Shown: one piece after another, positions 19,192 through 32,911 of the stretch
Layout: each line of letters starts with the position of its first letter
Numbering within the stretch: the stretch's first letter is position 1
Virus record (IMG/VR): IMGVR_UViG_3300005613_000235
Span: 1 to 33,834 of that record
DNA length: 33,834 bases
Direction: 5' to 3' (one strand)
Source: a virus
Position numbers and translations under genes: made by a program
Notes under the pieces: model-generated
Database searches by the model: none
Seen by the model: the letters and a program-made list of their open reading frames with translations, nothing else
Told to the model about the DNA's origin: nothing

Positions 19192-19476
19192 ATGGCTGAT
19201 TTAAATAAATTTTTAGAACAATATTATTTTCTAGCTACAAGACTAGATGAAATTAGTGCGTACCCCTTGGATGAAGAAAAGATTTATGATCCTAAAGATA
19301 AACGTAATCAAGCTTGGCATGACGCAAATAACAAACTTTTAAAATTGATCGAAAGCTTTAAACCTGATAAAAGTGCAGAACAACTGGCTATGCATGAATC
19401 TTTAAAAAGATTGAAGAAAAGAATTAAAACGTTATTAAAATCTTATGAAAAAGGAAAACAAAAACACGTCCATTAG
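19192..19476 (+). CDS. Small helical hypothetical protein (94 aa)
   Basis: ATG abuts the previous stop (TAAATG). Acidic helical N-terminus (LNKFLEQYYFLATRLDEI) and a basic C-terminal helix (KRLKKRIKTLLKSYEKGKQK). Likely co-translated with the oxygenase. No family recognised. Confidence 0.68.
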   Translation: MADLNKFLEQYYFLATRLDEISAYPLDEEKIYDPKDKRNQAWHDANNKLLKLIESFKPDKSAEQLAMHESLKRLKKRIKTLLKSYEKGKQKHVH

Positions 19477-19543
19477 CGCTAATGATTTTAAATTATTAGC
19501 AGGAGATACTAAAGAAGGAACTAAGTTTCCAGGAGAACCTGCG

Positions 19544-20344
19544 ATGCGTATCTTATCTTTAGGTGCAGGCGTTCAATCTTCAACGATGGCTTTGATGGCA
19601 GAGGCTGGAGAATTTGGAGTTAAACCTGATGCAGCTATCTTTGCGGATACGGGTTGGGAACCTCCACAAGTTTACGAACATTTAGAATGGTTAAAGACGA
19701 AATTATCTTATCCTGTTTATACGATTCAATACGGAAATATTAGAGAGGATATTGTAAACGCGATGTCGGAGAACGGGAACCGTTTTGCTTCCGCGCCGTT
19801 TTATACTAAAAATCCTGATACCGGGAAGAAAGGAATGCTGCGACGCCAGTGTACGAGAGAATATAAAATTACACCGATTATTAAAAAGACTCGAGAGCTC
19901 ATGGGTGTTGGATTTAGAAAACGTTTTCCAAAAGATAAATGGGTGGAGATGTGGATCGGTATTTCCACGGACGAAATTATGCGTATGAAACCCGCAAGGA
20001 TTTGGTGGCAATGTAATCGTTGGCCTTTGATTGAAAAGAAAATGTCAAGGGATGATTGTTTACAATGGTACGATGGACGCGATTTACGAAGACCCGCAAA
20101 GTCGGCATGTATTGGCTGCCCTTTTCATGATGACGCGTTTTGGGCAGATATGAAAAGAAATCGACCGGATGAATTTAAAGATGCTTGTGAGATTGATGAA
20201 CAAATTCGAAAAGGTAATCACAAGGTTAAGGATAATTTGTATATTCACCGTTCTTGTGTTCCTTTAAAAGAAGTTGTTTTTAAAGAAAAAGAAAAAGAAC
20301 CTGATTTATTTAATTTAGAATGCGAGGGTATGTGCGGTCTTTAG
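19544..20344 (+). CDS. PAPS-reductase/DndC-like PP-loop protein
   Basis: 266 aa from the ATG at 19544, chosen because AGGAG (19531-19535) lies 8 nt upstream and the family typically opens with the PP-loop; an in-frame ATG at 19445 would add 33 residues that overlap the previous gene. The N-terminus is MRILSLGAGVQSSTMAL, a PP-loop variant for ATP binding, followed by FADTGWEP. Cys motifs RRQCTREYK, ACIGCPFHDD and a terminal ECEGMCGL could hold an iron-sulfur cluster. Relatives include PAPS reductases and DndC; in phages the substrate is usually unknown. Context beside methyltransferase and oxygenase genes raises DNA or nucleotide modification, but that is inference. Confidence 0.82.
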   Translation: MRILSLGAGVQSSTMALMAEAGEFGVKPDAAIFADTGWEPPQVYEHLEWLKTKLSYPVYTIQYGNIREDIVNAMSENGNRFASAPFYTKNPDTGKKGMLRRQCTREYKITPIIKKTRELMGVGFRKRFPKDKWVEMWIGISTDEIMRMKPARIWWQCNRWPLIEKKMSRDDCLQWYDGRDLRRPAKSACIGCPFHDDAFWADMKRNRPDEFKDACEIDEQIRKGNHKVKDNLYIHRSCVPLKEVVFKEKEKEPDLFNLECEGMCGL

Positions 20345-20535
20345 CCGAATCCATTATTGATGTTGGCAGCGGTTTTTTACTGGCAATTTTCATTCAATTA
20401 GTTTTCTTTCCTGTTTTTGATCTTCACCCTACGATTTTTGAAAGTATGCAAATTGCTATGATTTTTACCGTTATTTCAATTCTTCGTTCTTGGTTTTGGA
20501 GAAGTATTTTTAAAAAATATTTTGATGATTTTTAA
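20320..20535 (+). CDS. Small two-helix membrane protein
   Basis: 71 aa with two hydrophobic helices (VGSGFLLAIFIQLVFFPVF and MQIAMIFTVISILRSWFW) and a basic, aromatic C-terminus. The pattern SLAE...G...A...Q....FP.F.L...........IFTVIS..RS matches a family of short phage membrane proteins found in many genomes, function unknown (I think the DUF7220 type, not certain). Starts in the PAPS-reductase-like gene (25-bp overlap). Confidence 0.78.
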   Translation: MRGYVRSLAESIIDVGSGFLLAIFIQLVFFPVFDLHPTIFESMQIAMIFTVISILRSWFWRSIFKKYFDDF

Positions 20536-20536
20536 C

Positions 20537-20568
20537 GAGTAGGAGATCATGGAGGTAACCTCCTACTC
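20537..20568 (+). terminator. Hairpin after the modification operon (terminator or regulatory RNA)
   Basis: GAGTAGGAG (20537-20545) pairs perfectly with CTCCTACTC (20560-20568), loop 14 nt. The loop and 3' arm also contain GGAGGTAACCTCC, a second palindrome that competes with the main stem. No U-run follows, so a bistable regulatory RNA is as likely as a terminator. The stretch 20569-20721 otherwise holds only a doubtful mini-ORF. Confidence 0.45.
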
Positions 20569-20598
20569 TACACGTGTTCCTAACAATCAAGAAAGGTA

Positions 20599-20694
20599 AT
20601 GAAAAACGTGATCCTTTTATCTAGCATAAATAACTGTTTTTGCAAACTTAATTTATTTTTAAGCCTGGTTCCTCCCACCGTATTTCTGTACTAG
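20599..20694 (+). CDS. Possible 31-aa mini-ORF
   Basis: ATG preceded by AAAGG (3 nt spacing). Encodes a short hydrophobic peptide beginning MKNVILLSSINNCF and ending PPTVFLY. Its only support is the SD and hydrophobic nature; the stretch may instead be an untranslated leader of the next gene. Confidence 0.2.
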   Translation: MKNVILLSSINNCFCKLNLFLSLVPPTVFLY

Positions 20695-20721
20695 GTTACC
20701 CGCTCAACCAAAGGAGGAGCT

Positions 20722-20922
20722 ATGTCTGTCAATATTGAAGAGATCGTTAAGAAAATCATCACCGATATGATTGAAAACGAGGAAATTAAAATTAACACGG
20801 ATGACGGAGGCCAGTTATTCTTAGAAGTTGGGAATGATTATGGCTACGATGACGATGAAATAGAGGAAAACGAGGACGAGGACGAGGACGAGGAAGACGA
20901 AGAAGGGTCGGAGGAGGACTAG
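20722..20922 (+). CDS. Small protein with polyacidic tail (66 aa)
   Basis: Strong SD (AAAGGAGGAG, 20710-20719) before the ATG. The first 36 residues are a helical domain (NIEEIVKKIITDMIENEEIK) and a strand-like stretch. From residue 39 on, nearly every residue is Asp or Glu, ending EEGSEED, encoded by a GAGGAC microsatellite-like run. Very acidic phage proteins can mimic DNA (as Ocr does) or bind basic proteins; there is no direct evidence for either here. Monocistronic by spacing. Confidence 0.72.
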   Translation: MSVNIEEIVKKIITDMIENEEIKINTDDGGQLFLEVGNDYGYDDDEIEENEDEDEDEEDEEGSEED

Positions 20923-20939
20923 TCACGGAGGGATTTTAC

Positions 20940-20992
20940 GAGGCCTAGAAAGTTTGATAGTTAGGATATAACGAAACGAAGATCTAGGCCTC
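20940..20992. repeat. Perfect 10-bp inverted repeat with 33-nt loop
   Basis: GAGGCCTAGA (20940-20949) and TCTAGGCCTC (20983-20992) are perfect complements. The arms are GC-rich in an AT-rich gap downstream of the acidic-tail gene. The loop is purine-rich and there is no U-run. It may be a processing/terminator stem or a protein-binding site. The gap 20923-21375 otherwise holds only the miniprotein and repeats listed below. Confidence 0.5.
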
Positions 20993-21053
20993 ATATTTAC
21001 ACTAAACACTATTAACTTACCAAAATAAAATATACTTTCAAGAAAAAAATTAG

Positions 21054-21080
21054 TTGACTTCGCTATAATCCCATGTAAAT
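21054..21080 (+). promoter_or_regulatory. Promoter with ATCCCATG word before miniprotein 21088
   Basis: TTGACT (21054-21059), 15-nt spacer holding ATCCCAT at 21068-21074, weak -10 GTAAAT (21075-21080), then 7 nt to ATG 21088. Same geometry as the promoters at 15128-15162 and 26501-26527. Confidence 0.45.
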
Positions 21081-21087
21081 AGGCTAT

Positions 21088-21192
21088 ATGATTTTATTTA
21101 TTTTAATCGGTTTGGGTGCGCTGATGATTCTGCCTGCTCTGATCAAATTGTGGCAAAGTTTGGCATATTTTCTAGTCTACGTTGCATTTTAG
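21088..21192 (+). CDS. 34-aa hydrophobic membrane miniprotein
   Basis: Starts MILFILIGLGALMILPALIK and continues LWQSLAYFLVYVAF. Almost entirely hydrophobic, with one Lys, it would form one or two membrane helices. It is preceded by a promoter whose predicted start is at the ATG, and only a weak AGG serves as SD. The position before the terminase gene and its nature suggest a small holin-like or signalling peptide; unproven. Confidence 0.45.
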   Translation: MILFILIGLGALMILPALIKLWQSLAYFLVYVAF

Positions 21193-21197
21193 GTGTG

Positions 21198-21220
21198 AGT
21201 AGGCTGAATTTCAGCCTACT
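21198..21220. terminator. Perfect 23-bp palindrome (hairpin) after miniprotein
   Basis: AGTAGGCTGAA (21198-21208) and TTCAGCCTACT (21210-21220) flank a single T: in RNA, a stem of about 9-10 pairs with a small loop. It lies 6 nt past the miniprotein stop. Only a short T run follows, so termination would be weak; it may also be an operator. Confidence 0.5.
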
Positions 21221-21294
21221 TTCAGGGTACTAGGCTGAAAGAATTTCCCGCATTATATATAGTATATTTAACTATATTCTGGTTTCAGGGTACT
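21200..21294 (+). repeat. Short direct repeats upstream of the terminase small subunit
   Basis: TTTCAGGGTACT occurs at 21220-21231 and 21283-21294, and TAGGCTGAA at 21200-21208 and 21231-21239. ATATAGT/ACTATAT (21257-21263 and 21271-21277) form an inverted repeat between them. The cluster sits 80-170 nt before terS and looks like a regulatory or packaging (pac/cos-type) recognition region. Confidence 0.45.
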
Positions 21295-21375
21295 TTTAGG
21301 GTTTTTACCAGTTAGTATATAAAAAAAGTATAGAATACTCTATAGGAAAACTGAAATTTGTGATAGGAATTGGTC

Positions 21376-21864
21376 ATGAAGAAACTCCATTTAGCTAGGC
21401 AAAAGTTGACACCAAGGCAGCAGAGCTTCGCTGAGATTTATGTAGCAGGTTACCCGGATATCACCAAGACGGAGGCTGCGGAGAAGGCAGGATTTAGCAA
21501 AAAGATTGCTTCTAAGATAGGATCGCAATTAACTAACGCTGACTTATACCCTAGAGTTGTATCTTACATGGAAACTTTACGGGACCAGAAATCTTCTTCG
21601 TATAGAGATTATTTGAGACATTTAAAAAGATTAGATACATTAGCTCAAAAGGCGGAGGCAAAAGGACAATACGCAGCTGCTGTAAACGCTGAATTTAGAC
21701 TTGGACAAGCCGCAGGTTTTTATATAGACAAAAAGGAAATCAAAGTTGAAGATTTAACCGTAATGTCAAAAGATGAATTAATTAAAAAAATAGAAGACCT
21801 GCAAAATGAAATACCGACCGAAAAAACAATCGACATCACAGCGGACGAAGAAACCAATAAGTGA
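21376..21864 (+). CDS. terS: Terminase small subunit
   Basis: 162 aa. N-terminal KLTPRQQSFAEIYVAGYPDI (part of the Terminase_2-type pattern), then TKTEAAEKAGFSKKIASKIG, a helix-turn-helix with the usual AA..AG.S, and a helical oligomerisation part. It recognises the packaging site and regulates the large subunit. ATG 21376 is preferred over the TTG at 21370 because AGGA (21365-21368) is 7 nt from it. It is separated from the large subunit by 4.7 kb of small genes, which is unusual; they are normally adjacent. Confidence 0.88.
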   Translation: MKKLHLARQKLTPRQQSFAEIYVAGYPDITKTEAAEKAGFSKKIASKIGSQLTNADLYPRVVSYMETLRDQKSSSYRDYLRHLKRLDTLAQKAEAKGQYAAAVNAEFRLGQAAGFYIDKKEIKVEDLTVMSKDELIKKIEDLQNEIPTEKTIDITADEETNK

Positions 21865-21958
21865 TGAAAAGTTTTGGGATCTATTTCACCGGGTCCATAA
21901 CAAACACTTAAACACATCCGTGGGAGCGGTAACTGTAAATGTTAAAAAGAAAGATTAA
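21806..21958 (+). CDS. Small basic overlapping protein (50 aa)
   Basis: Lies in the +1 frame over the terS 3' end (59-bp overlap) and runs through the otherwise empty gap into the HExxH gene (20-bp overlap). Translation opens MKYRPKKQSTSQRTKKP and continues ISDEKFWDLFHRVHNKHLN, ending VTVNVKKKD. The segment outside terS (FWDLFHRVHNKHLN...) is protein-like. SD is weak. Placed as probable because it fills the gap with overlaps typical of this genome. Confidence 0.5.
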   Translation: MKYRPKKQSTSQRTKKPISDEKFWDLFHRVHNKHLNTSVGAVTVNVKKKD

Positions 21959-22361
21959 AGTCGGATATGATGATCTGGAAATTAAAAAAATAGAATTTCA
22001 TCCGTCAAAAGATAATGATAGTTTCGGCGAATTTAAAAGCGCTGCCTCGACCATTGAGATCGCAAAAGGTATGCATCCGAGACAAGAGGCTAATACCTTT
22101 TTACATGAAATTTTACACGCTTGTGTCTATCAATCAGGGTTAAATGCTGAAGGTGGAGCCTTGTATAAGAGCGAGGATGAAGAAGTGACTATCAATGCTT
22201 TGGCTAATTCTTTCAGTCAAGTTGTGCGTGACAATAATTGGTTTTTACCCTATCTACAAAATGGACTAACTGGAGCTAAAAATGGCATTGAAGAAAAACG
22301 AGTCAAAGCTATGGCAAAGACTAAAAAACAATATAAAAAACGGGCATTTCGTAAGAATTGA
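21939..22361 (+). CDS. HExxH putative zinc metallopeptidase-like protein
   Basis: 140 aa. Zinc motif HEILH (His56, Glu57, His60) in ANTFLHEILHACVYQSGL, preceded by IEIAKGMHPRQ; a third ligand could be an acidic residue in the SEDEEVTINALAN stretch. Small single-domain gluzincin-like proteins with HEilHa are frequent in phages, and targets are unknown. The C-terminus is basic. The last 80 bp overlap the nuclease gene. No SD is obvious. Confidence 0.75.
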   Translation: MLKRKIKVGYDDLEIKKIEFHPSKDNDSFGEFKSAASTIEIAKGMHPRQEANTFLHEILHACVYQSGLNAEGGALYKSEDEEVTINALANSFSQVVRDNNWFLPYLQNGLTGAKNGIEEKRVKAMAKTKKQYKKRAFRKN

Positions 22362-22662
22362 AAGTCATACCATACAAGGTATTCCTGATATAAATTATTG
22401 CATAAATGGAGTTGAAGGTTGGATTGAATTAAAGGTAAACTCCAGTAAAATAAGTCCTCTATCTAAGTGGCAAAAATCATGGATTTATACGAGAGTTAAA
22501 AACGGCGGCAAAGTATTTATTATCACTTTCACCCCCTCGGAGAGAGCCTTAAAACTTTTCAAACCGAGACCCTCCACCCGTGACCCGCTATCCGATCCAC
22601 CGGTACACAACTTCCAGGAGCCGATCAATTGGTCACTGGTCGCGGAATTCCTGAAAAAATAA
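22282..22662 (+). CDS. VRR-NUC/PD-(D/E)XK endonuclease-like protein
   Basis: 126 aa. Motifs in order: RIESH, GIPDINY (Asp36), GWIELKV (Glu49, Lys51), then SKWQKSWIYTRVKNGGKVFIITF, matching VRR-NUC-type Holliday-junction or structure-specific nucleases. Catalytic Asp, Glu and Lys all appear present. SD GGAGC 5 nt before ATG. It lies between the terminase small subunit and the cargo array and may resolve branched DNA before packaging. Overlaps the HExxH gene by 80 bp. Confidence 0.8.
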   Translation: MALKKNESKLWQRLKNNIKNGHFVRIESHTIQGIPDINYCINGVEGWIELKVNSSKISPLSKWQKSWIYTRVKNGGKVFIITFTPSERALKLFKPRPSTRDPLSDPPVHNFQEPINWSLVAEFLKK

Positions 22663-22675
22663 TTAAATTTTTTTA

Positions 22676-22709
22676 TTGACACCATATCCCACGGTGATAA
22701 AAGGATAAT
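22676..22709 (+). promoter_or_regulatory. Promoter with ATCCCA word ahead of the cargo array
   Basis: TTGACA (22676-22681), then ATATCCCA (22684-22691) and an AT-rich -10 zone (GATAAAAGGATAAT at 22696-22709; best spacing 14-15 for GATAAA/ATAAAA). It follows directly on the nuclease gene and is in front of a 115-120 nt leader. Confidence 0.5.
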
Positions 22710-22710
22710 C

Positions 22711-22773
22711 GGTAGTTCATTTCAAAACAATTAGCTCCTGTTTCGATTAACTACCACGGGTCGACGGTCGACC
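22711..22773 (+). ncRNA. Structured leader with GGTCGAC palindrome
   Basis: GGTAGTT (22711-22717) pairs with AACTACC (22749-22755), then a perfect 15-bp palindrome GGTCGACGGTCGACC (22759-22773), which is also a direct repeat of GGTCGAC. GC-rich in an AT-rich region. It ends about 50 nt before the 22824 gene and may be a terminator-like stem, a regulatory leader or a protein-binding site. Confidence 0.45.
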
Positions 22774-22823
22774 ACTGACCATGGGAGGCCGTTGACGCTG
22801 GAAACATAACTAATGGAGGATCT

Positions 22824-23012
22824 ATGAAAGAAACAAAATACAGCTTTTATTACCGGTCATGGGATGGACACATCATGAGACCGGAAAGCTTTTTAAACAT
22901 TAACAAGGGTCGTACCTTATCCGGATCGCAATTGCGCGTCCTGGGTATCACTAAAATAAGAAAGAAGGATTTATGCTCATATTTGGAAAACCGATCGACA
23001 ATAGAAAAATAA
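22824..23012 (+). CDS. Small hypothetical cargo protein (62 aa)
   Basis: SD GGAGG in the leader ATGGAGGATCTATG. Sequence begins MKETKYSFYYRSWDGHIMR and is basic and polar, with SQLRVLGITKIRKKDLCSYL. No family recognised. First of the cargo-array genes. Confidence 0.65.
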   Translation: MKETKYSFYYRSWDGHIMRPESFLNINKGRTLSGSQLRVLGITKIRKKDLCSYLENRSTIEK

Positions 23013-23089
23013 AAAAATTTATTGACCAGTATAAGTTAAAAATTTTATTTATCATTTTATTGATTTTAAGCTTGACGGTCTCATTTTAA
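22973..23089 (+). CDS. 38-aa membrane miniprotein
   Basis: ATG with AGAAGGA 4 nt upstream, overlapping the previous gene by 40 bp. Basic N-terminal part (KPIDNRKIKKFIDQYK) and a C-terminal hydrophobic helix (ILFIILLILSLTVSF). Topology is inferred: a tail-anchored peptide. The promoter for the next gene overlaps its 3' end. Confidence 0.5.
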   Translation: MLIFGKPIDNRKIKKFIDQYKLKILFIILLILSLTVSF

Positions 23090-23098
23090 TGGGATAAT
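23072..23098 (+). promoter_or_regulatory. Promoter of the Gp88-like gene
   Basis: TTGACG (23072-23077), 15-nt spacer, GATAAT (23093-23098). ATGGGATA spans 23089-23096, overlapping the -10, so a factor bound there would block polymerase. The leader then runs to SD GGAGG and the ATG at 23126. Confidence 0.6.
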
Positions 23099-23125
23099 AG
23101 ACTATAAACTAAAAATGGAGGATCT

Positions 23126-23800
23126 ATGTTACTACAAGTCAATACTAATTGGAAAACAATTAAATCTATGAAATACGGATTCATGACCGGTATCCTATAC
23201 CTGGCCCCGTATAAATTATCTGGTAAAAATGTTTGCCCGGCCGCTTCGCTAGGCTGCCGCCTGAGCTGCTTGAATACGGCAGGACGGGGACAGATGGGCG
23301 TGGTCCAGAAGGCTAGGCTTCGAAAAACAAAAATGTTTTTTCAGGATCGTAATAAATTTTTATCCCAGTTAAAAACTGAAATAGAAATATTAAATAGAAG
23401 GGCAGCTAATAAGAATATGAAATTAGCTATCCGGTTGAACGGGACCAGCGACCTACCCTTCGAGAGATATTTAATCGAGGGTAAAAATTTAATGGACCAC
23501 TTTCCTGGAGTTAAGTTTTATGATTATACGAAACTCGAAAACCGGGTCACGGGGTCATTACCGGCTAATTATCATTTAACGTTTTCGCGATCCGAGACTA
23601 ATGACAACGTTGTCTACAAAGTCATTAAGAAGGCGCCCGTGTCCGTGGTCTTTAAAAATAAATTACCTAAAAAATTTAAAGGCTATAAAGTTATTAATGG
23701 TGATTTACATGACATGAGATTTAAAAACAAATCCGGGGTCATTGTGGGTCTACTTGCTAAGGGCAAGGCCAAAAAAGATAATACTGGTTTCGCAGTTTAA
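23126..23800 (+). CDS. Gp88-like phage protein with Cys-rich N-terminus
   Basis: 224 aa. Cys37, Cys44 and Cys48 in VCPAASLGCRLSCLNTAGRG, followed by QKARLRKTKMFF and IRLNGTSDLPFE, and a downstream FYDYTK, are the pattern of a phage family I know as gene product 88. Three or more Cys suggest a metal or iron-sulfur site; biochemical function is not known to me. Own promoter, SD GGAGG 4 nt from ATG. A hairpin terminator follows. Confidence 0.8.
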   Translation: MLLQVNTNWKTIKSMKYGFMTGILYLAPYKLSGKNVCPAASLGCRLSCLNTAGRGQMGVVQKARLRKTKMFFQDRNKFLSQLKTEIEILNRRAANKNMKLAIRLNGTSDLPFERYLIEGKNLMDHFPGVKFYDYTKLENRVTGSLPANYHLTFSRSETNDNVVYKVIKKAPVSVVFKNKLPKKFKGYKVINGDLHDMRFKNKSGVIVGLLAKGKAKKDNTGFAV

Positions 23801-23828
23801 GAAATTCGTGACCTCCATTACGAATAAC

Positions 23829-23856
23829 CTACTCAGGGATAGATATCCCTGAGTAG
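23829..23856. terminator. Bidirectional hairpin terminator between convergent genes
   Basis: CTACTCAGGGA (23829-23839) pairs perfectly with TCCCTGAGTAG (23846-23856), 6-nt loop that can extend the stem by two pairs. It lies between the plus gene ending 23800 and the minus gene ending 23865. The T run is poor on either strand. Confidence 0.6.
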
Positions 23857-23864
23857 AGTTAAAA

Positions 23865-24104
23865 TTAATCCCTCCAGACTCCGATGGTGCCAATACCTTC
23901 AATATTGGTTAAAAGGGCTCCCGCCTCGTTGGCCTCATCATCCGCGCTAGGGGTCAAAATGATCCCGTTGCTTAAATGAATCTCACAAGGTTGATAATCC
24001 CATCCAAAATATTTTTCAGATTTTTTAGGACTTAGATATTCAACTTTAGTTATTCGTTGCCCAACTAAAGCTTTTTTCAATTTATTTATAAATTGATCCT
24101 GCAT
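23865..24104 (-). CDS. Small hypothetical cargo protein (79 aa)
   Basis: The longest frame starts at 24116, but that ATG belongs to the ATGGAGGAAAACATG leader, so 24104 is used. Sequence contains ALVGQRITKVEYLSPKKSE, then IHLSNGIILTPSADDEANEAG. The DDExNxAGAL signature fits a widespread small bacterial and phage family of unknown function. Promoter shared divergently with gene 24183. Confidence 0.78.
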   Translation of the reverse strand: MQDQFINKLKKALVGQRITKVEYLSPKKSEKYFGWDYQPCEIHLSNGIILTPSADDEANEAGALLTNIEGIGTIGVWRD

Positions 24105-24127
24105 GTTTTCCTCCATTATTTTTTAAT

Positions 24128-24160
24128 TTGACTTTAATATAGTCATGGGATATAAGTCAA
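24128..24160. promoter_or_regulatory. Divergent promoter pair, copy 1, with central CATGGGATA
   Basis: Plus: TTGACT (24128-24133), 15-nt spacer, GATATA (24149-24154). Minus: TTGACT (24160-24155) with TATATT or TATTAA as -10 on the complement near 24134-24141 (spacing 13-15). The -35s form the arms TTGACTT/AAGTCAA of an inverted repeat. CATGGGATA lies at 24144-24152. The sequence is nearly duplicated at 24920-24955. Confidence 0.6.
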
Positions 24161-24182
24161 GTAAATAAAAATGGAGGATAAA

Positions 24183-24527
24183 ATGGGATACACTAATCAT
24201 TGGTATCATAAAAAACCATTCACGGATGTCGAATGGGCTATAATCAAAAAAGAATATAAGTACGTTGTAGAGAATTTTAATAATGTACTTATTAAAGATC
24301 AAACCGAGGATCAAAACGAAATACGTTTTGACGGTATTGGTCAGAATAGTCATGAAACATTTATTTTAAAAAAAGTAAATAATACGGAACCTATGTACGA
24401 GGGGGACGACGTGACCTATAATTTTTGTAAAACAAATCGTAAACCTTATGATATCGTCGTTAGGCATATATTAAGATATGCCAATCATATTAATGACGAT
24501 AAACTATCACTTAGATTCGAGGATTAA
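24183..24527 (+). CDS. Phage hypothetical protein with HETF...FCKT...KPYD signature (114 aa)
   Basis: Start corrected to 24183: the upstream in-frame ATG at 24171 lies in the SD leader. Opens MGYTNHWYHKKPFTD and contains RFDGIGQNSHETFIL and YNFCKTNRKPYDIVVRHIL. This set of motifs is shared by a phage family of unknown function that I have seen in many genomes. Followed at once by a good rho-independent terminator, so the gene is monocistronic. Confidence 0.8.
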   Translation: MGYTNHWYHKKPFTDVEWAIIKKEYKYVVENFNNVLIKDQTEDQNEIRFDGIGQNSHETFILKKVNNTEPMYEGDDVTYNFCKTNRKPYDIVVRHILRYANHINDDKLSLRFED

Positions 24528-24540
24528 AAAATAAAAAAAA

Positions 24541-24567
24541 GGCGGGATAAAACCCGCCTTTTTGTTT
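24541..24567. terminator. Rho-independent bidirectional terminator
   Basis: GGCGGG (24541-24546), loop ATAAAA, CCCGCC (24553-24558), then TTTTTGTTTT. An A8 run precedes it, so it also works for the convergent minus-strand gene ending at 24581. This is the best terminator in the window. Confidence 0.9.
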
Positions 24568-24580
24568 TCTGGTGTTTTTT

Positions 24581-24895
24581 TTAATTTGTAATATAGGCGC
24601 CATCAAGTATTGCGTCTAAACTCAATTTAGATTTAACCTTGACCGAGTGACCCACATCGAACCACTCGCCCCCACGTTTAACTAATTTAATTTGATAAGA
24701 ATAGATTGAACCCATCTCATCAAACATGCCCAATTGGGAGCCTTTAGCATCTATCAAAATAGTGCTTTTAAGACCTTTACCCTGCTTAGGTGATTCCATT
24801 AGAACCCCTTCACAAAGTGCACCTAATTGATTTGATTGTATAATATCACCCTTCCTTAGTTCACTAAAGTTGATGATTGTTTTTTCTGTACTCAT
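24581..24895 (-). CDS. Small hypothetical cargo protein (104 aa)
   Basis: Start corrected to 24895 (the ATG at 24907 belongs to the ATGGAGGAAACAATG leader). Contains INFSELRKGDIIQS, GVLMESPKQGKG, and GMFDEMGSIYSYQIKLVKRGGEW, a beta-rich pattern. No function known. Own divergent promoter with gene 24976, terminator shared with 24183. Confidence 0.75.
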   Translation of the reverse strand: MSTEKTIINFSELRKGDIIQSNQLGALCEGVLMESPKQGKGLKSTILIDAKGSQLGMFDEMGSIYSYQIKLVKRGGEWFDVGHSVKVKSKLSLDAILDGAYITN

Positions 24896-24919
24896 TGTTT
24901 CCTCCATTGTTTTTTTTAT

Positions 24920-24955
24920 TTGACTTTAATATACTCATGGGATAACTTAAGTCAA
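24920..24955. promoter_or_regulatory. Divergent promoter pair, copy 2, near-duplicate of copy 1
   Basis: Plus: TTGACT (24920-24925), 15-nt spacer, GATAAC (24941-24946). Minus: TTGACT (24955-24950), 16-nt spacer, TATATT (complement of 24928-24933). CATGGGATA at 24936-24944. It matches copy 1 base for base over most of the plus-strand part (TTTGACTTTAATATA then TCATGGGATA) and shares the SD leaders on both sides. Confidence 0.65.
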
Positions 24956-24975
24956 ATAAAAAAATGGAGGATAAA

Positions 24976-25353
24976 ATGAAAAAACCGTTCATTACAGTTA
25001 AGACTAAAATCAAAGTACAGCTTATTTTTAGTTTTGATAATCATGAACAACAAATGTGGGAATGCGAATTTAAAGCATTACCTATTGATTGGAATGAAAG
25101 TGATTTAATTAGAAATCTAATTGAAAACGCTTTCCCTAATGACATTGAAAACACAAAAGACTTAGTTAAGATTTCAATGTGTATTAATGGAGATAAGGCC
25201 TCAACAAAAGTACCTTGCATTAAACAGATGTTAAAAAGAAATGGTAAGTACTTTTTTCAACCCGACCAACGTGACCACGTTGAGAATGCAATTATAAAAG
25301 ATTCGGTTATTGCAAGTCTTACAAAACCATTCTCAGAATTAAAAGTCAGCTAA
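24976..25353 (+). CDS. Hypothetical cargo protein (125 aa)
   Basis: Start corrected to 24976, downstream of the ATGGAGGATAAAATG leader. Begins MKKPFITVKTKIKVQLIF, and alternates strand and helix, ending HVENAIIKDSVIASLTKPFS. Soluble; no family recognised. A GC-rich terminator-like hairpin follows. Confidence 0.75.
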   Translation: MKKPFITVKTKIKVQLIFSFDNHEQQMWECEFKALPIDWNESDLIRNLIENAFPNDIENTKDLVKISMCINGDKASTKVPCIKQMLKRNGKYFFQPDQRDHVENAIIKDSVIASLTKPFSELKVS

Positions 25354-25384
25354 GCATCACAAGGTCCGGTTAACGCCGGGCTGC

Positions 25385-25421
25385 GCCCCCGGTCACCGCC
25401 GGGGGCTCATGCAATTTTTTT
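25385..25421 (+). terminator. GC-rich hairpin terminator
   Basis: GCCCCCGG (25385-25392), loop TCACCG, CCGGGGGC (25399-25406), then after a short linker a T7 run (25415-25421). GC content stands out from the AT-rich flanks. The T run also lies in the loop of a second small stem (GCAAT/ATTGC, 25411-25426). Confidence 0.75.
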
Positions 25422-25473
25422 ATTGCAATTAAAATAAATTAATTTAAAAATAAAAATAACAATGGAGGTTAAA

Positions 25474-25632
25474 ATGAAAGTATGTAGTATCTGTCAAAAG
25501 ACGGAGCAAGAGCAAGGCACAAATTTTGATTGTGAGGTGTGGAAACCTAATCAAAAATATCTAATACTATTATGTGATGATTGTTTCTTTAATGAAAGAG
25601 ATAAGTTATCTAAAACTAACAATGGAGGTTAA
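25474..25632 (+). CDS. Small zinc-ribbon cargo protein (52 aa)
   Basis: ATG in the AATGGAGGTTAAAATG leader. Opens MKVCSICQKTEQEQGTNFDC and continues EVWKPNQKYLILLCDDCFFN. CSIC (4-7) and CDDC (34-37) give a classic two-knuckle zinc ribbon. Its last codons and stop lie in the SD leader of the next gene, so the two are coupled. Weak AT-rich promoter-like sequence precedes it (TTGCAA at 25423-25428). Function unknown. Confidence 0.7.
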   Translation: MKVCSICQKTEQEQGTNFDCEVWKPNQKYLILLCDDCFFNERDKLSKTNNGG

Positions 25633-25633
25633 A

Positions 25634-25903
25634 ATGAAAAAAATATACCTAGGCTCAACGGGTGTAGATAGCGGTCAACTTTTTATCAGTGACCCATGTT
25701 ACATTAAAATGGATAAACCGAACGACACTATTACATATGATGATATGTGTGTTAGTGTAGATAGGCCGAGCAAACAACTTATTAATAAGTTCGGAGCTGA
25801 GGTCGGAGTAGTCGTTCCGACAACTATCGGTGACGGTGTTTATCCTGTATATGGCCAATATAATTCTAAAGGCCAATTAAAGAAATTAGTTATAGAAATA
25901 TAA
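25634..25903 (+). CDS. DUF4241-like small protein (89 aa)
   Basis: Start corrected to 25634; the longer frame from 25574 runs back over the zinc-ribbon gene. Sequence contains GVDSGQLFISDPCYIKMD, VVVPTTIGDGVYPVYGQYN and LKKLVIEI. The SDPCY and GDGxYPVYG motifs fit a family of unknown function related to DUF4241. Followed by a perfect 12-bp hairpin terminator. Confidence 0.78.
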   Translation: MKKIYLGSTGVDSGQLFISDPCYIKMDKPNDTITYDDMCVSVDRPSKQLINKFGAEVGVVVPTTIGDGVYPVYGQYNSKGQLKKLVIEI

Positions 25904-25917
25904 ACCAGTGAATAATA

Positions 25918-25947
25918 CTGAAACCCTAATTGAGTTTAGGGTTTCAG
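25918..25947 (+). terminator. 12-bp perfect hairpin terminator
   Basis: CTGAAACCCTAA (25918-25929), loop TTGAGT, TTAGGGTTTCAG (25936-25947), then TTCTGTTCT. It lies 15 nt after the stop of the DUF4241-like gene. Confidence 0.8.
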
Positions 25948-25989
25948 TTCTGTTCTGGTAAGGATCGCAATCTTTTATTTATTTTTTAC

Positions 25990-26017
25990 TTGCATCCATA
26001 TCCCATTAATATATTAT
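25990..26017 (+). promoter_or_regulatory. Promoter with ATCCCAT word before gene 26058
   Basis: TTGCAT (25990-25995), 16-nt spacer, TATTAT (26012-26017). TATCCCAT lies in the spacer at 25999-26006. The leader continues to the third copy of the ATGGAGGTTAAAATG sequence. Confidence 0.6.
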
Positions 26018-26057
26018 AAAATTGTTTTAATATTTAACATTAACAATGGAGGTTAAA

Positions 26058-26378
26058 ATGAAAAATATAAAAACACAAAAAAAAGTAAAAGTACAAGGAA
26101 TGAAATCGCAAAAACAAATTGCGACTTTGTACAATGTAAGACAACAAATTAAAGGCCTTAAACAAATTGAAAAACAAATTGTTGATGAGCTCAAAGTCTT
26201 ACAGAATGAATGTCCGATTGTTTTTAATTCAGTGGACAATTACAAATACGTTCTAGATATTTCAAATCAAACTAGAAATGTATTCAATCAATCAGAGTTC
26301 AAAGAACAGAACACAGACTTATTCTATAAGTTTGTAACTCAGCAATTAGTTACCATCGTTAAAGTAGACCGTCGATAG
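26058..26378 (+). CDS. Small basic helical cargo protein (106 aa)
   Basis: Start corrected to 26058. Opens MKNIKTQKKVKVQGMKSQK, then a coiled-coil-like helix (NVRQQIKGLKQIEKQIVDEL) and a polar C-terminus. Basic and probably nucleic-acid or protein binding; no family recognised. It has its own promoter and a hairpin after it. Confidence 0.72.
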   Translation: MKNIKTQKKVKVQGMKSQKQIATLYNVRQQIKGLKQIEKQIVDELKVLQNECPIVFNSVDNYKYVLDISNQTRNVFNQSEFKEQNTDLFYKFVTQQLVTIVKVDRR

Positions 26379-26387
26379 ACGGTCACG

Positions 26388-26407
26388 GCGCCCCCATTCG
26401 GGGGCGC
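26388..26407 (+). terminator. GC-rich hairpin ending the cargo array
   Basis: GCGCCCCC (26388-26395), loop ATTC, GGGGGCGC (26400-26407), eight perfect pairs 9 nt after the stop. No U-run directly after it. Confidence 0.7.
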
Positions 26408-26448
26408 TGAACCTAATCCACAGCCAAAATCGAAACGTGAATTATCGA

Positions 26449-26468
26449 CCCCCCACCCCCTTTTTTTT
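26449..26468 (+). repeat. Polypyrimidine tract (C6 A C5 T8)
   Basis: A run of C, one A, more C and then T8, in the gap before terL. No ORF. It could be a slippery or protein-recognition site, or a T-run of a degenerate terminator; nothing more is visible in 26408-26500. Confidence 0.5.
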
Positions 26469-26500
26469 AAAGTTAGGTACTTAATAGATCAGCTTAGAGG

Positions 26501-26527
26501 TTGAGTTATACAGAAACATCTTATATA
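26501..26527 (+). promoter_or_regulatory. Late promoter of the large terminase gene
   Basis: TTGAGT (26501-26506), 15-nt spacer, TATATA (26522-26527; TATAAA at 17-nt spacing), 7 nt before the start ATG. No SD, so a leaderless mRNA is predicted. Confidence 0.5.
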
Positions 26528-26534
26528 AAAACTT

Positions 26535-28016
26535 ATGATGGACTACGATGCAGTTCCTAGAGAGAAGTTAGAAGAACTAGCCCGTTTACTAGAAGCAAAA
26601 AAGATACTGGACGCCAGAGAAAATTTCTTGCCTTTTGTAAAACAGGTGTGGCCAGAATTTATTTGTCGTGAAGCTAAGGAACCTTCTGAATGGGGGCACC
26701 ACCAAATTATTGCGGATCGTTTAACTAAAGTCGCTCAAGGGAAGTTAAAAAGATTAATTGTTAACATGCCACCAAGGCATACGAAATCAGAATTTGCTTC
26801 TGTGTTTTTTCCTGCTTGGATTATGGGACTCAAGCCTGATGCAAAAATTATGCAGGTTTCTCACAATGCTGAACTCTCACAAAGGTTTGGTCGTAAAGTT
26901 AGGAATCTTGTTTCCTCAGAAGATTATTCAAAAGTTTTTAAAAATGTTTCTTTGGCTCAAGACTCCAAAGCTTCAGGTCGTTGGGAAACCAATCACGGTG
27001 GTGAATACTTTGCAGCGGGTGTCGGCGGAGCGATTACAGGACGAGGTGCTGATATTTTAATTATTGACGATCCGCACACCGAACAAAATGTTATGTCAGG
27101 CACGGCCATGGAAAAGACTTACGACTGGTATGTTTCAGGACCCCGTCAGCGTCTCCAACCTGGAGGAGCGATCGTGGTGGTCATGACCCGTTGGGCAACA
27201 AACGATCTCACAGGTAAACTGATTGATCACCAAAAAAATGATAACGCCGATCAGTGGGAAGTCATTCACTTTCCTGCATTGATGCCAAGCGGCGAACCCG
27301 TCTGGCCTGAGTATTGGAAGAAGTCAGAACTTGAAGCGGTTAAAGCCTCCCTCCCTCCGCAACGCTGGAACGCACAGTATATGCAAAACCCGACGTCGGA
27401 AGAAGGAGCTCTGGTCAAAAGAGAATGGTGGAGGCCTTGGAGGGGAGACATTCCTAATTTAAGTTTCGTGATCCAATCTTACGATACCGCTTATTCTAAA
27501 AAAGAAACAGCAGATTACTCAGCGATTACTACGTGGGGCGTATTCTATCCTGAGGAGGGCGGAGACCCAGCTATTATTTTAGTCGATGCCATGCGCGGTC
27601 GATATGATTTCCCTGATTTGAAAAATATTGCATTAGAACAATATAAATACTGGCAACCGGAAGCCGTTGTGATTGAGGCGAAAGCCACAGGACAGCCTTT
27701 GTTACAAGAATTTAGACGTATGGGGATTCCTGTGATGGATTTCACTCCCACACGTGGAAAAGATAAGTTTACAAGGCTTAATTCGGTTGCACCTTTGTTT
27801 GCATCTGGTATGGTGTATTATCCAGAGGGAGAACAATTTGCACTTGATGTCATTGAAGAGGTCGCTGCATTCCCTAACGGAGAACACGATGACTATGTCG
27901 ACAGCATGACCCAAGCTATGTTAAGATATAGACAGGGCAGTTTTGTTTCTGCAGATTTTGATGAGATTGTGGAAGCAAAAGAGCGTTTAACAATGGAACA
28001 TACATATTATGGTTAA
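26535..28016 (+). CDS. terL: Terminase large subunit
   Basis: 493 aa. ATPase: Walker A-like PPRHTKS (79-85), Walker B ILIIDDPH (174-181) and coupling motif VVMTRW (215-220). Nuclease: acidic residues Asp317 (SYDTAYS), Glu381 (VIEAKATG) and Asp452/Asp453 with Asp456 (HDDYVDSMTQA). It drives ATP-dependent DNA packaging and cleaves concatemers. Start is the first of two consecutive ATG-type codons; no SD. It heads the packaging and head gene cluster and overlaps the next gene by 8 bp. Confidence 0.96.
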   Translation: MMDYDAVPREKLEELARLLEAKKILDARENFLPFVKQVWPEFICREAKEPSEWGHHQIIADRLTKVAQGKLKRLIVNMPPRHTKSEFASVFFPAWIMGLKPDAKIMQVSHNAELSQRFGRKVRNLVSSEDYSKVFKNVSLAQDSKASGRWETNHGGEYFAAGVGGAITGRGADILIIDDPHTEQNVMSGTAMEKTYDWYVSGPRQRLQPGGAIVVVMTRWATNDLTGKLIDHQKNDNADQWEVIHFPALMPSGEPVWPEYWKKSELEAVKASLPPQRWNAQYMQNPTSEEGALVKREWWRPWRGDIPNLSFVIQSYDTAYSKKETADYSAITTWGVFYPEEGGDPAIILVDAMRGRYDFPDLKNIALEQYKYWQPEAVVIEAKATGQPLLQEFRRMGIPVMDFTPTRGKDKFTRLNSVAPLFASGMVYYPEGEQFALDVIEEVAAFPNGEHDDYVDSMTQAMLRYRQGSFVSADFDEIVEAKERLTMEHTYYG

Positions 28017-28881
28017 AAGTATAGCAGAAACAGTTGTCGACACTTTAGGTGAAGTTGATCCTCAAAAATACATGCAAGAACAATTAGGACAAGCCCAAAC
28101 CGCTGCAGGTGGTATTGAAGGAGCTAAGGAAAAATATGGTGTAAAAGGATATCAGTCAGGCGGTGAGTTATTAATCAAACCTAAATTTAAAAAAACACCT
28201 AAGAATAGAAAAAAGTCTTCTCTTAGAGAAGGGGCTAAAGAGATGGCAAAAGATATGGCAAAAATGAATGCACCTTTTATGGTGGGCGTTCCTGTTTTTC
28301 TAGGTAGTACGATTGGTTCATCCAAACTAAGTGAGTACAGAGAAAAAAAGAAAAAAGAACAAATTGGAAAAGGAAAAAAGGCAACGCCTGAAATTAAAGC
28401 AGAGGGTGCGAAACAAGGTGGAATGATGAAAATGAAAAAGGGAGGCAAAGTTAAACAAATTTTAAAAAAAATTGAAGAGACAAGTAACAGAGTTCCAAGA
28501 CAAGGTCCTAAAACAGATATTAAAAAAATGCCTAAAAATTTTTCAGAGTTCGGAGTGGATGTTGATCCTACCGACAAAAAGCCATTTGTGTATGGAGTGA
28601 AAAAAACAGGTAAAGATACTTTTATTCACGGAGCCTCAAAAGGTAAAAAAGATTACGTCGGAAGTATTGAAAAAGGTTCATTTAAAGGAAGCTACGAAAG
28701 AAGTTTAAAAGGAGATGACGTGGTTAAAGGAACCTATAGTAAAAATGGTTTTCGAGCGGGTGTATCTAAATCAGGAGGCAATAAACAATTCACTTTAGGT
28801 TTTGAAAAAAAATTTAAACAAGGTGGAATGGTTTGCCGAGGTCAAGGTAAAGCAAGAAAGAAAAACTTTAAGGTATATTAA
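28009..28881 (+). CDS. GG-tag structural protein between terminase and portal (290 aa)
   Basis: Very basic, with a hydrophobic patch NAPFMVGVPVFLGSTIGSS (about residues 87-105) and repeated Gly-Gly motifs (GYQSGGELL, AKQGGMMKMKKGGKV). The C-terminal half is beta-repeat-like (YVGSIEKGSFKGSYERSLKG). The end is KQGGMVCRGQGKARKK followed by NFKVY, a tail that is similar in several virion proteins of marine phages and occurs as a variant at 31219-31695. Location suggests a head-associated protein. Function unknown. Confidence 0.8.
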   Translation: MVKSIAETVVDTLGEVDPQKYMQEQLGQAQTAAGGIEGAKEKYGVKGYQSGGELLIKPKFKKTPKNRKKSSLREGAKEMAKDMAKMNAPFMVGVPVFLGSTIGSSKLSEYREKKKKEQIGKGKKATPEIKAEGAKQGGMMKMKKGGKVKQILKKIEETSNRVPRQGPKTDIKKMPKNFSEFGVDVDPTDKKPFVYGVKKTGKDTFIHGASKGKKDYVGSIEKGSFKGSYERSLKGDDVVKGTYSKNGFRAGVSKSGGNKQFTLGFEKKFKQGGMVCRGQGKARKKNFKVY

Positions 28882-31232: not shown

Positions 31233-31695
31233 AAAAGGTAAAAAAATTATGAAATCCATGAAAGAACAGTATGGATCTAAAAAAGGTGAAGCTGTTTTTT
31301 ATGCTTCAAGCAACAAAGGTAAAATAAAAGGCGTAGAAAAGAAACAAGAAGGGGGTATGGCAGGCAAAACATCTGGCCCTCCACCCGTAAAAGGCCCTGC
31401 GTCACAAGGAATAAGCGCACCAGCTAAAGGAAATTTAGATGTTTTAGGCGCTTCTAGAAAAGCAATGGGTGAAATTAATAAAAATATGCAAAAAAGTTTT
31501 ATGAATACTTTAAAAGGGGGAAATTTTAGAGATTTTATTCGTTTATTTGCTACTATGAAAGGCCAAGGAACATTACCAGGTCAAAATACGTTTAAAGAAC
31601 GTAACTTAGAAGGTTTTAGTTACAAAAAAGGTGGGATTGCTAAAGGATGTGGCAAAGTTATGTCTAATAGACGTAAGTTGACAAAGAAATATTAA
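31219..31695 (+). CDS. Small basic protein with GG-type C-terminal tail (158 aa)
   Basis: Opens MPLTKKGKKIMKSMKEQYGS followed by KKGEAVFYASSNKGKIKGV, a signature I know from many marine phages with unknown function. Middle is Gly/Pro/Ala rich, and the end is YKKGGIAKGCGKVMSNRRKL, a variant of the GG tail in the 28009 gene. Basic and likely virion-associated. Starts inside the portal gene. Confidence 0.85.
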   Translation: MPLTKKGKKIMKSMKEQYGSKKGEAVFYASSNKGKIKGVEKKQEGGMAGKTSGPPPVKGPASQGISAPAKGNLDVLGASRKAMGEINKNMQKSFMNTLKGGNFRDFIRLFATMKGQGTLPGQNTFKERNLEGFSYKKGGIAKGCGKVMSNRRKLTKKY

Positions 31696-31736
31696 CTATT
31701 ATATGATGCATTGCAACACAAACTAAGGAGTTTACA

Positions 31737-31868: not shown

Positions 31869-31870
31869 TT

Positions 31871-32251: not shown

Positions 32252-32469
32252 TGGACTACGATACTTTAAAAGCAATAAGCAAACGTTTAGATAAACGAAA
32301 AGAAGTTTTAACAGATAAGATCACATTTGGTGTTGACAATTGGGGATCCTATCAATATATTGTAGGACAAATCAGATCTATAAATGATCTGCAACAAGAT
32401 CTTAAGGACTTGCTGAAGAAACAGGAGCTATATAATGACGATAATAACGCCGAAGGCGCAGGAACATAA
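32251..32469 (+). CDS. Small helical hypothetical protein (72 aa)
   Basis: GTG start overlapping the previous stop (TAGTG). Helical and charged (MDYDTLKAISKRLDKRKEVL, then RSINDLQQDLKDLLKKQEL), ending in an acidic Asn/Asp stretch. Possibly a coiled-coil virion or lysis-cluster component. No family named. Confidence 0.72.
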   Translation: MDYDTLKAISKRLDKRKEVLTDKITFGVDNWGSYQYIVGQIRSINDLQQDLKDLLKKQELYNDDNNAEGAGT

Positions 32470-32911
32470 CAACGAAGAAATACCAGCCAAAAAAGAAGGC
32501 TTACTCAACGCATACAAATCAAAAGAAGAAATAGAAAAACTTTATCTTGATAAAGATTCTATTGATCAATCTGAACTAGATAAATTACCGACTCCAACAG
32601 GATGGAGAATTTTAGTGCTTCCTTATACAGGACCTAAAAAAACTAAAGGCGGAATTATTTATTCAGATGTTACGCAAGAAAAAATTCAGATGACAACCGT
32701 TTGTGGTTTAGTCTTGAAGATGGGTGATCTTTGCTACAAAGACAAAGATCGTTATCCCGAAGGTCCATGGTGTAAGGTCAACGATTGGATCATCTTTGGC
32801 AGATACGCAGGAAGCCGTTTCAAAATAGATGGCGGTGAAGTGCGAATTTTAAACGATGATGAAATCATCGCAACAATCAGTAATCCGGAGGATATACTGC
32901 ATACGTATTAA
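32435..32911 (+). CDS. GroES-like (Cpn10) co-chaperonin
   Basis: 158 aa. After a charged 50-residue extension comes a Cpn10 domain: PTGWRILVLPYTGPKKTKGG with the mobile loop at about residues 64-79 (GPKKTKGGIIYSD), then VCGLVLKMGD, VNDWIIFGRYAG and DDEIIATI. It should cap host GroEL to fold capsid or other phage proteins, like T4 gp31. Directly before the scaffold gene, so expressed with the head genes. Starts inside the previous gene (35-bp overlap). Confidence 0.85.
   Translation: MTIITPKAQEHNNEEIPAKKEGLLNAYKSKEEIEKLYLDKDSIDQSELDKLPTPTGWRILVLPYTGPKKTKGGIIYSDVTQEKIQMTTVCGLVLKMGDLCYKDKDRYPEGPWCKVNDWIIFGRYAGSRFKIDGGEVRILNDDEIIATISNPEDILHTY

Follow-up and report, generated by a model that had tools for sequence, protein, structure and literature searches.

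The window, by which we mean the whole analyzed stretch of viral DNA (33,834 nucleotides, IMGVR_UViG_3300005613_000235), carries nine small ORFs between a nuclease-like gene that ends at 22662 and terL, which starts at 26535. Seven of the ORFs are located on the plus and two on the minus strand, which agrees with the strand-switching genes described in an earlier note on this DNA. On the left side lie the gene for the terminase small subunit F1 (21370..21864, plus strand; phrog_51, E 2.5e-8), a conserved flank found in 18 of the 19 intervals compared, the M78/peptidase-like gene F3 (21939..22361, plus; phrog_1233, E 5.5e-15, Peptidase_M78 weak and below the cut-off) and F2 (22282..22662, plus), the conserved border of the array. 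F2 resembles phrog_2165, labelled DNA helicase (E 6.6e-18), and a Pfam search of this gene gave no match; the name nuclease is an assumption of ours, based on the earlier label and a family resemblance. The conserved right flank is the terminase large subunit gene terL (26535..28016, plus; phrog_38, E 4e-113). With 60-67% identity in terL and small genes between terS and terL, the locus is similar to that of the HTVC023P-type pelagiphages.

Among the cassette ORFs, F17 (22824..23012, plus, 62 aa) had no match in the phrog and Pfam family searches and is 89% identical to its counterpart in G044 (L314). It is followed by F7 (23126..23800, plus), a member of the GP88 family (PF17338, 158.9 bits, cut-off 24.4), F9 (23865..24104, minus; 79 aa, or 83 aa with a start at 24116), F10 (24183..24527, plus, 114 aa) and F6 (24581..24895, minus, 104 aa). 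An ORF of 125 aa (24976..25353, plus) was found elsewhere only in L003 among the loci compared, and the next one with 52 aa (25474..25632, plus) had no relatives among them. The last two are F13 (25634..25903, plus, 89 aa; phrog_5209, E 5.5e-13) and F4 (26058..26378, plus, 106 aa), which mostly adjoins terL and is present in 12 of 19 intervals. A search for tRNA and tmRNA genes in the interval, in the window and ten loci found none.

The earlier note had placed promoters at 22676, 23072, 24128, 24920 and 25990, and TTGAC or TTGCA boxes are indeed present at all five positions. A plain sigma-70 scan from 20000 to 33834 revealed no excess of promoter-like sites (43 found, 41.7 expected). We regard the five promoters as credible because they have parts in common, an operator-like box and the AATGGAGG leader. 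The box, similar to CATGGGATA/TATCCCATG, occurs at each of them, in one or the other orientation: as TATCCCAC in the spacer of P1 (22676..22710, plus), which has a TTGACA box 35 nt before a hairpin described below, as ATGGGATAAT in P2 (23072..23100, plus) and as TATCCCAT in P5 (25990..26020, plus). P3 (24104..24183, between F9 and F10) and P4 (24896..24976) are divergent promoter-leader blocks, and the proposed near duplication was confirmed for them with 82% identity over 49 nt (24104-24152 and 24896-24944). The ten copies of the leader in the window all lie inside 22.8-26.1 kb, and nine are closely followed by the start of an ORF. There were 25 occurrences of the operator-like 8-mer ATGGGATA in the 56.8 kb of intervals and a single one in 224.6 kb elsewhere, in loci that were partly picked after the motif had been seen, and TATCCCAT occurs 39 times upstream and twice downstream of terL (summed table of 46 loci). 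Presumably one protein binds the box. F4 was considered as an HTH regulator of the box; its alignment looks helical and gives no support for this. The boxes of P3 and P4 have a resemblance to T7-type promoters. Promoters of a phage RNA polymerase were set aside for two reasons: no such enzyme is annotated in HTVC023P and in the parts of HTVC027P and 023Pt_psg01 covered, and the -35 geometry agrees with sigma-70.

Five hairpins, described before as terminators at 23829, 24541, 25385, 25918 and 26388, proved to be real beyond chance (ranks 5, 32, 2, 8 and 1 among 2252 60-nt windows across the record). The hairpin at 23828..23857 lies between the convergent genes F7 and F9 (-23.3 kcal/mol, shuffled mean -4.6), and the one at 24536..24563, between F10 and F6, is terminator-like on both strands (-17.7, shuffled -3.7). 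On the plus strand a G+C-rich hairpin (25376..25409; -32.0, shuffled mean -18.1), a terminator-like hairpin (25917..25948; -24.6, shuffled mean -8.4) and a second G+C-rich hairpin before terL (26388..26407; -28.5, shuffled mean -15.6) follow, the last one being the strongest 60-nt window of the record. Only 24541 and 25918 passed a plus-strand scan for T-tract terminators. The idea of a separate promoter, SD and terminator for every cassette holds for part of the genes: the ORFs at 25474 and 25634 lack individual promoters, the hairpins at 23829 and 24541 are each common to a convergent gene pair, and an RNA gene constitutes the first module. The promoter block at 22676 leads first into an RNA hairpin (22711-22755) and not into a gene.

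Comparison with HTVC023P/HTVC027P-like relatives revealed the variable gene content between conserved promoter blocks and flanks that had been predicted. In the relatives compared, terS, the nuclease gene, the hairpin RNA and terL were retained, while cassettes were reordered, inverted, inserted or lost. F10 and F6 have the same orientation in G044 as in the window; in a clade with 81-82% identity in terL (G035, G048, G059) F10 and F13 are located on the minus and F6 on the plus strand, each opposite to the window. The order of F4 and F13 is swapped in L003. In this marine phage, a relative of HTVC023P, the region forms a modular array of accessory genes, and genes and blocks are shuffled, inverted and swapped between relatives. 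Published RNA-seq data for HTVC027P assign gp30, gp33 and gp34 each to a separate temporal cluster (PMC12753301). According to their positions these are genes of the terS-terL interval, and their own clusters fit separate transcription. The label moron fits only loosely: presence varies among relatives, but only part of the genes have their own promoter and terminator.

The repeated leaders are probably the sites where homologous recombination exchanges cassettes, judging from one case of flanking repeats, an F14 cassette in G044 between two identical 28-nt leader repeats, and from mosaic identities of adjacent genes to G044 (F17 89, F9 43, F10 67 and F6 93%; F9 reaches 63% in L156). Alternatively, the array might hold no more than ordinary accessory genes that share strong promoters; its repeats would be products of local duplication, and cassettes would not be exchanged. 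The near duplication of some blocks speaks for this, as do the 52- and 125-aa genes with few or no relatives among the loci compared, but families keep their identity while order and strand change, neighbors differ sharply in identity and one cassette is flanked by identical repeats, so that we consider this explanation very unlikely.

Two known systems come close to such an array. The PeSL elements of T4-like phages, reportedly described by Arbiol et al. in 2010, are early promoters within a stem-loop between shuffled genes. The array is similar in its repeated intergenic promoter units between shuffled small genes, here with inverted-repeat arms; perfect 16-nt inverted repeats (repeat I22) flank P4 on both sides. 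Unlike PeSL, the promoters share an operator-like box and a start leader, the first member is a noncoding RNA and the phage group is unrelated. The SAS/ESAS of cluster K mycobacteriophages consist of a repeated leader GGGATAGGAGCCC that immediately precedes the starts of many small genes, in some cases with upstream inverted repeats (PMC3203893). In contrast, the array has the AATGGAGG-based leader AATGGAGGNTNAAATG instead of GGGATAGGAGCCC before its starts, and the inverted repeats surround promoters.

The hairpin behind P1 (22711..22755, plus) has the loop TTAGCTCCTG (22730-22739 region), a folding energy of -9.4 kcal/mol (z -3.7) and a score of 52.3 bits with the covariance model R1. It folds together with a second hairpin of the same predicted transcript (22756..22801, plus; rank 7 of the 2252 windows). 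After removal of the collagen-like repeats L104, L105, L108, L133, L139 and L159 as false positives, two pattern scans yielded 102 viral copies. One copy had too little upstream sequence; in 99 of the 101 testable ones a -35 box lies 34-37 nt upstream of the hairpin, compared with 0 of 48 control-like pattern matches. At this distance the transcript would be expected to begin with the hairpin, which gives the RNA a predicted independent promoter. Nine of ten single hairpins had fold z values of -3.6 to -5.0 (L035, -2.2), and covariation amounted to 0.224 compared with 0.147 in shuffled and at most 0.078 in slid alignments, a conserved secondary structure as expected for an antisense sRNA. No Rfam family reached its gathering score in nine sources, and in the window region none matched across the hairpin even with E values allowed up to 1. 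No convincing counterpart was found in HTVC023P, HTVC027P and 023Pt_psg01, which in contrast to the window have the operator box without the hairpin RNA, and no good R1 match in G002 (60 kb) and G003 (38 kb). In cellular genomes the pattern occurred in 13 stretches (14 matches), and on inspection none of these had the -35 geometry. The R1 scores of three stretches (L342, L343 and L344) are low yet below E 0.01; these stretches were judged to be chance matches because they had been selected by the loop pattern.

The proposed target of the loop is the ribosome-binding site GAAACAGGAGCTA (32418..32430, plus) of the phage co-chaperonin gene groES (32435..32911, plus; PF00166 Cpn10, 38.7 bits, cut-off 21.1). 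Its 13 nt perfect match is the longest exact loop complement in the window, the next best having 11 nt. All 18 contigs with both elements show this complementarity over 11-18 nt, with only 11 nt in L035/G024. In six contigs scanned completely the groES site was the single longest exact complement in four, tied in G043 and came second in G024. Between two lineages the loop changes along with its target: TAGCTCC loops accompany AGGAGCTA sites and TGGCTCC loops AGGAGCCA sites, a single switch among the two main loop types. Among 720 permutations, the own pairing of loop and target came first by energy and within the top 8 by length. For AACAGGAGCAA sites a third loop type had been predicted in advance, but the search did not find it (48 stretches, none with the -35 geometry), and the sequence examined of HTVC023P, HTVC027P, 023Pt_psg01 and L025 contained no convincing equivalent complement to the own groES site. 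Part of the match is explained by coding constraint, because the last part of the upstream ORF (KKQE) and the target share sequence, and all 80 groES loci, including those where the hairpin RNA was not found, retain AACAGGAGC. By raw duplex energy other sites in the window rank above groES (-30 compared with -23), and 16 of 200 shuffled RNAs reached a 13-nt match somewhere in the window.

The RNA might act on several late genes as a general anti-Shine-Dalgarno regulator with a CU-rich loop. For the gene behind groES, the window and most TAGCTCC-type contigs have the ribosome-binding site AGGAGCTA(A), with a complement of 8-10 nt, and in G024 the site of the neighboring gene pairs better (12 nt) than that of groES (11 nt). 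In G001 and G060, however, the neighboring site is AGGAGGACA with a match of 5-6 nt, whereas groES keeps 15 nt. We rate a regulator of this general kind as rather improbable. An unlikely explanation is also a cis-acting 5' element, a put-like antitermination RNA or a leader for the next gene, with the groES match as a by-product. The hairpin always begins at the predicted +1, strong hairpins lie downstream, and in the window, where no intrinsic terminator closes it, the RNA runs into F17. Yet the genes behind the hairpin vary by clade (F17, F15, F7, F8, F12, F23), in L014 the next gene follows about 370 nt later with its own promoter, and the joint change of loop and groES site would be left unexplained.

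We therefore favor, as a likely explanation of the sequence data, a cassette array combined with a trans-acting antisense RNA that represses phage groES. Array, shuffling, operator box, promoter geometry, conserved fold and complementarity with its lineage-wise change were computed directly; production of the RNA, its pairing in the cell, the repressive effect and the time of action are proposed as follows. The small genes would start from promoter-leader blocks with one operator-like box and one ribosome-binding leader, and the first block would produce the RNA with the hairpin itself as 5' end. The apical loop (UUAGCUCCUGUUU, or UGGCUCCUGUUUCUU in another lineage) would pair with the Shine-Dalgarno sequence of groES about 10 kb away and should bar ribosome entry, so that GroES from the late operon would be held down while the RNA is present. 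The sar RNA of P22 is a phage antisense RNA that pairs with the start site of a phage mRNA (PMC12197685). Compared with this type, the RNA is likewise a short phage RNA with a predicted promoter of its own, complementary to a translation start and expected to lower translation; in contrast to it, the RNA lies about 10 kb from its target and not opposite, the target is a co-chaperonin, the hairpin is conserved with a changing loop, and its carriers are related to a lytic group of marine phages.

More tentatively, and taken together with its groES pair and the shared regulator, the hairpin could represent an RNA family that has not been named before and is present in many marine phages. It may be that this family co-evolves with groES and is controlled through the operator box by the same regulator as the cassettes; one switch would then open the cassettes and close GroES synthesis until assembly, a scenario we regard as possible and somewhat doubtful. 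A conserved RNA with a readable target offers a testable case of post-transcriptional control of a phage chaperonin. GroES is one of 13 core genes of the HTVC023P-type pelagiphages (PMC9599517). The array provides natural cases for cassette exchange at short repeated leaders, and annotation of the interval, whose genes are otherwise listed as hypothetical, benefits from the RNA model and the operator box.

Behind the first promoter block of the array (22676) we identified a candidate RNA at 22711-22755 (+) with the sequence GGTAGTTCATTTCAAAACAATTAGCTCCTGTTTCGATTAACTACC, which is predicted to fold into a hairpin of two parts whose TTAGCTCC loop is exposed. Scanning IMG/VR with a pattern returned 73 stretches, from which six collagen-like repeats were removed, and a second scan, aimed at a GGCTCC loop, returned 34. 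This gave 102 copies: the loop is TAGCTCC in 68, which include the window and represent 13 distinct cores, and GGCTCC in 34, with 18 distinct cores. TTGAC or TTGAT is located exactly 34-37 nt upstream of the hairpin in 99 of the 101 copies with enough upstream sequence; because of this position of the -35 box the hairpin should form the 5' end of a transcript. A pattern of the same style with a different loop yielded 48 stretches, none with the -35 geometry. A covariance model (17 sequences) also located the RNA in the related loci L026, L029, L030, L015 and L016, with a weak hit in L035, always upstream of terL. The covariation score of 44 copies in an alignment fitted to the model was 0.224, compared with 0.147 after shuffling and at most 0.078 with the partner slid; on the unfitted 17-sequence alignment it was 0.143 versus 0.106. 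Neither the hairpin RNA nor an evident substitute was found in the related phages HTVC023P, HTVC027P and 023Pt_psg01.

Behind the hairpin RNA the loci L010, L011 and L014 (about 1900-1975 in L014) contain another stretch that may be structured, TTGGGGC...TGCCCC with CTCGAGAAAAAGCTTCCCACTGTAGTCCAAGAC, which gave no tRNA or tmRNA call and no Rfam match. In the clade with 72-74% terL identity, the terS-terL interval of L014 (1524-2010 and 3100-3140) and of L007-L013 carries arrays in which CCCATTTCCCAT-like repeats occur together with palindromes of the type GCGGTACCGC. These arrays are absent from the window and could be packaging or regulatory sites.

All five array promoters (22676, 23072, 24128, 24920 and 25990) contain the operator-like box CATGGGATA or a close relative, oriented one way at 23072, 24128 and 24920 and the opposite way at 22676 and 25990. 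The 8-mer ATGGGATA has 25 copies in 56.8 kb of interval sequence versus one in 224.6 kb elsewhere, a ratio inflated upward since some loci were chosen after the motif had been seen, and such counts include chance cases. One of these is the start of the array ORF F10 at 24183, which reads ATGGGATACAC (MGYT) and thereby places the 8-mer at a start codon by chance. According to our sum of the table for 46 loci, TATCCCAT occurs 39 times upstream and twice downstream of terL. The operator core accompanies 67 of 67 testable TAGCTCC copies of the RNA and 12 of 34 GGCTCC copies. The complete record of HTVC023P has the box at three interval promoters, at one further place within the interval (near 13561) and at one site between divergent genes (near 7957). 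Across the loci the box lies between -35 and -10, over -10 or near +1, and because position and orientation vary, an operator would suit it better than a polymerase contact. Directly behind a -35 box, two boxes form the perfect palindrome TATGGGATAATATATTATCCCATA in L071 (2371-2390) and L073 (5817-5836), suggesting a dimeric binding protein.

Within the window, and apart from its own site, the RNA finds its longest exact complement in GAAACAGGAGCTA (13 nt, runner-up 11), the ribosome-binding site (RBS) of the gene at 32435, which encodes GroES (PF00166). GroES was found in 10 of 33 and 4 of 32 records of RNA-bearing contigs, most of the remaining records being short fragments; together with the window, L128, L155 and L156 this resulted in 18 contigs with both RNA and groES. 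An exact complement of 11-18 nt to the groES RBS is present in 18 of 18, which correspond to about six independent cases at most, since several contigs share a lineage. The match comprises 18 nt in G048, 17 in G035 and L156, 15 in the four GGCTCC-type contigs, 13 in the window, G007, G043 and L155, 12 in six contigs of the G032/G033 lineage and 11 in G024. GGCTCC loops match AGGAGCCA sites and TAGCTCC loops match AGGAGCTA sites. At TAGCTCC-type sites the match of GGCTCC RNAs shrinks to 10 nt, apart from the site of the window with 13. A further block can pair in the lineages of G043, G033 and L155, GUCCGUUGGG of the RNA with CCUAACGGAC of the mRNA, with duplex energies of -36 to -40 kcal/mol. 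Among all 720 permutations of six lineage representatives, the summed energy is lowest for the own RNA-groES pairing, and by exact length 8 of 720 equal or beat it. Scanning six whole contigs revealed groES as the longest complement in the window, G001, G048 and G077 and as a tie in G043; in G024 it is second to the RBS of the neighboring gene. The RBS AAGGAGCTAA of the gene after groES (32911-32945 in the window) is also complementary to the loop, over 8-10 nt in most relatives, and the window has a further 11-nt match, GAAACAGGAGC, just within the coding start of this gene.

Other results argue against the pairing, as does the failure to find the RNA or a substitute in HTVC023P, HTVC027P and 023Pt_psg01. 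All 80 groES loci examined retain the RBS core AACAGGAGC, whether or not they come with the RNA, and this core falls within the end of the upstream ORF, so its constancy is no evidence for pairing. For the AACAGGAGCAA lineage a TTGCTCC loop had been predicted beforehand, should the RNA be present; the pattern scan found none, nor was the hairpin RNA found in the longer contigs G002 and G003 of this lineage. In the window, groES is not the best site by raw duplex energy, being surpassed by others. Shuffled RNAs reached 13 nt somewhere in the window in 16 of 200 cases; the same count was 1 of 200 in both G001 and G077, 0 in G048, 10 in G043 and 11 in G024.

The RNA would be made from its own sigma-70-type promoter and would most likely hinder ribosome entry by pairing with the groES Shine-Dalgarno sequence. 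From the box we infer two possible timings: should a repressor bind there and be removed late, the RNA would brake GroES early, and should the box bind an activator, it would do so late. Antisense RNAs of phages that pair at start sites are already a known kind, an example being P22 sar (PMC12197685). The hairpin RNA matched no Rfam family, and we found no earlier description of it in the literature searched, which was mostly open-access. The accessible parts of a survey of HTVC023P-type phages (PMC9599517) do not mention small or noncoding RNA, and those of PMC12753301 mention no small RNA, ncRNA or groES.

The array contains nine ORFs, in agreement with the eight or more small genes of the earlier note, and the five hairpins and five promoter-like boxes of that note are present at their positions. 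As 60-nt windows the hairpins rank 1, 2, 5, 8 and 32 of 2252 and are thus among the strongest structures of the record. The leader AATGGAGG has 10 copies in the window, all within the array region and nine ahead of an ORF start. A generic sigma-70 scan showed no excess of promoter-like sites, and the promoter calls therefore depend on their repeated parts. The idea that each cassette has its own promoter and terminator holds for some genes and fails for others.

Gene content had been expected to vary between stable flanks, and a comparison of 19 intervals by ORF calling and blastp bore this out: order, strand and cassettes differ, while 18 of the 19 have terS and 17 have the nuclease-like gene, the missing cases including truncated contigs. 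The order in the window clade is RNA, F17, GP88 (F7), F9 (-), F10, F6 (-), 125 aa, 52 aa, F13, F4 and terL; in G035 and G059, which G048 resembles, it is RNA, F15, F7, F9 (-), F10 (-), F14, F13 (-), F18 (-), F6 and F4, so that three families have switched strand. In L003, with terL DNA 89% identical to the window, F4 and F13 have swapped places. G044 is 81% identical to the window through F7 and carries F14 between F9 and F10, flanked by two identical 28-nt leader copies. Protein identities between window and G044 are 89% for F17, 43% for F9, 67% for F10 and 93% for F6 (over 71 residues), whereas F9 is 63% identical in L156, although this contig is otherwise more distant. Such mosaic identities match what cassette exchange would leave behind, and we infer recombination at the leaders as the probable route. 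For HTVC027P, which lacks the hairpin RNA, the accessible part of an RNA-seq study reports temporal clusters in a mosaic arrangement and a separate behavior of gp30, gp33 and gp34 (PMC12753301); these genes are located within its terS-terL interval.

The virus record is linear, with 33,834 bases and a G+C content of 35%. The terL identity is 67% to Pelagibacter phage HTVC023P and 60-61% to HTVC027P, 023Pt_psg01 and DSL-LC04. Because the records of these four phages comprise 57-62 kb, the window is probably a fragment of a longer genome, and from these relatives our guess for the host is SAR11. The early region contains DNA methyltransferase and phosphoadenosine phosphosulfate reductase-like genes (17607-18698 and 19445-20344). 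The GP88 family gene of the array (PF17338, 23126-23800) provides the only distant DNA match of the region among phage records, to HTVC024P with 77% over 78 bp.
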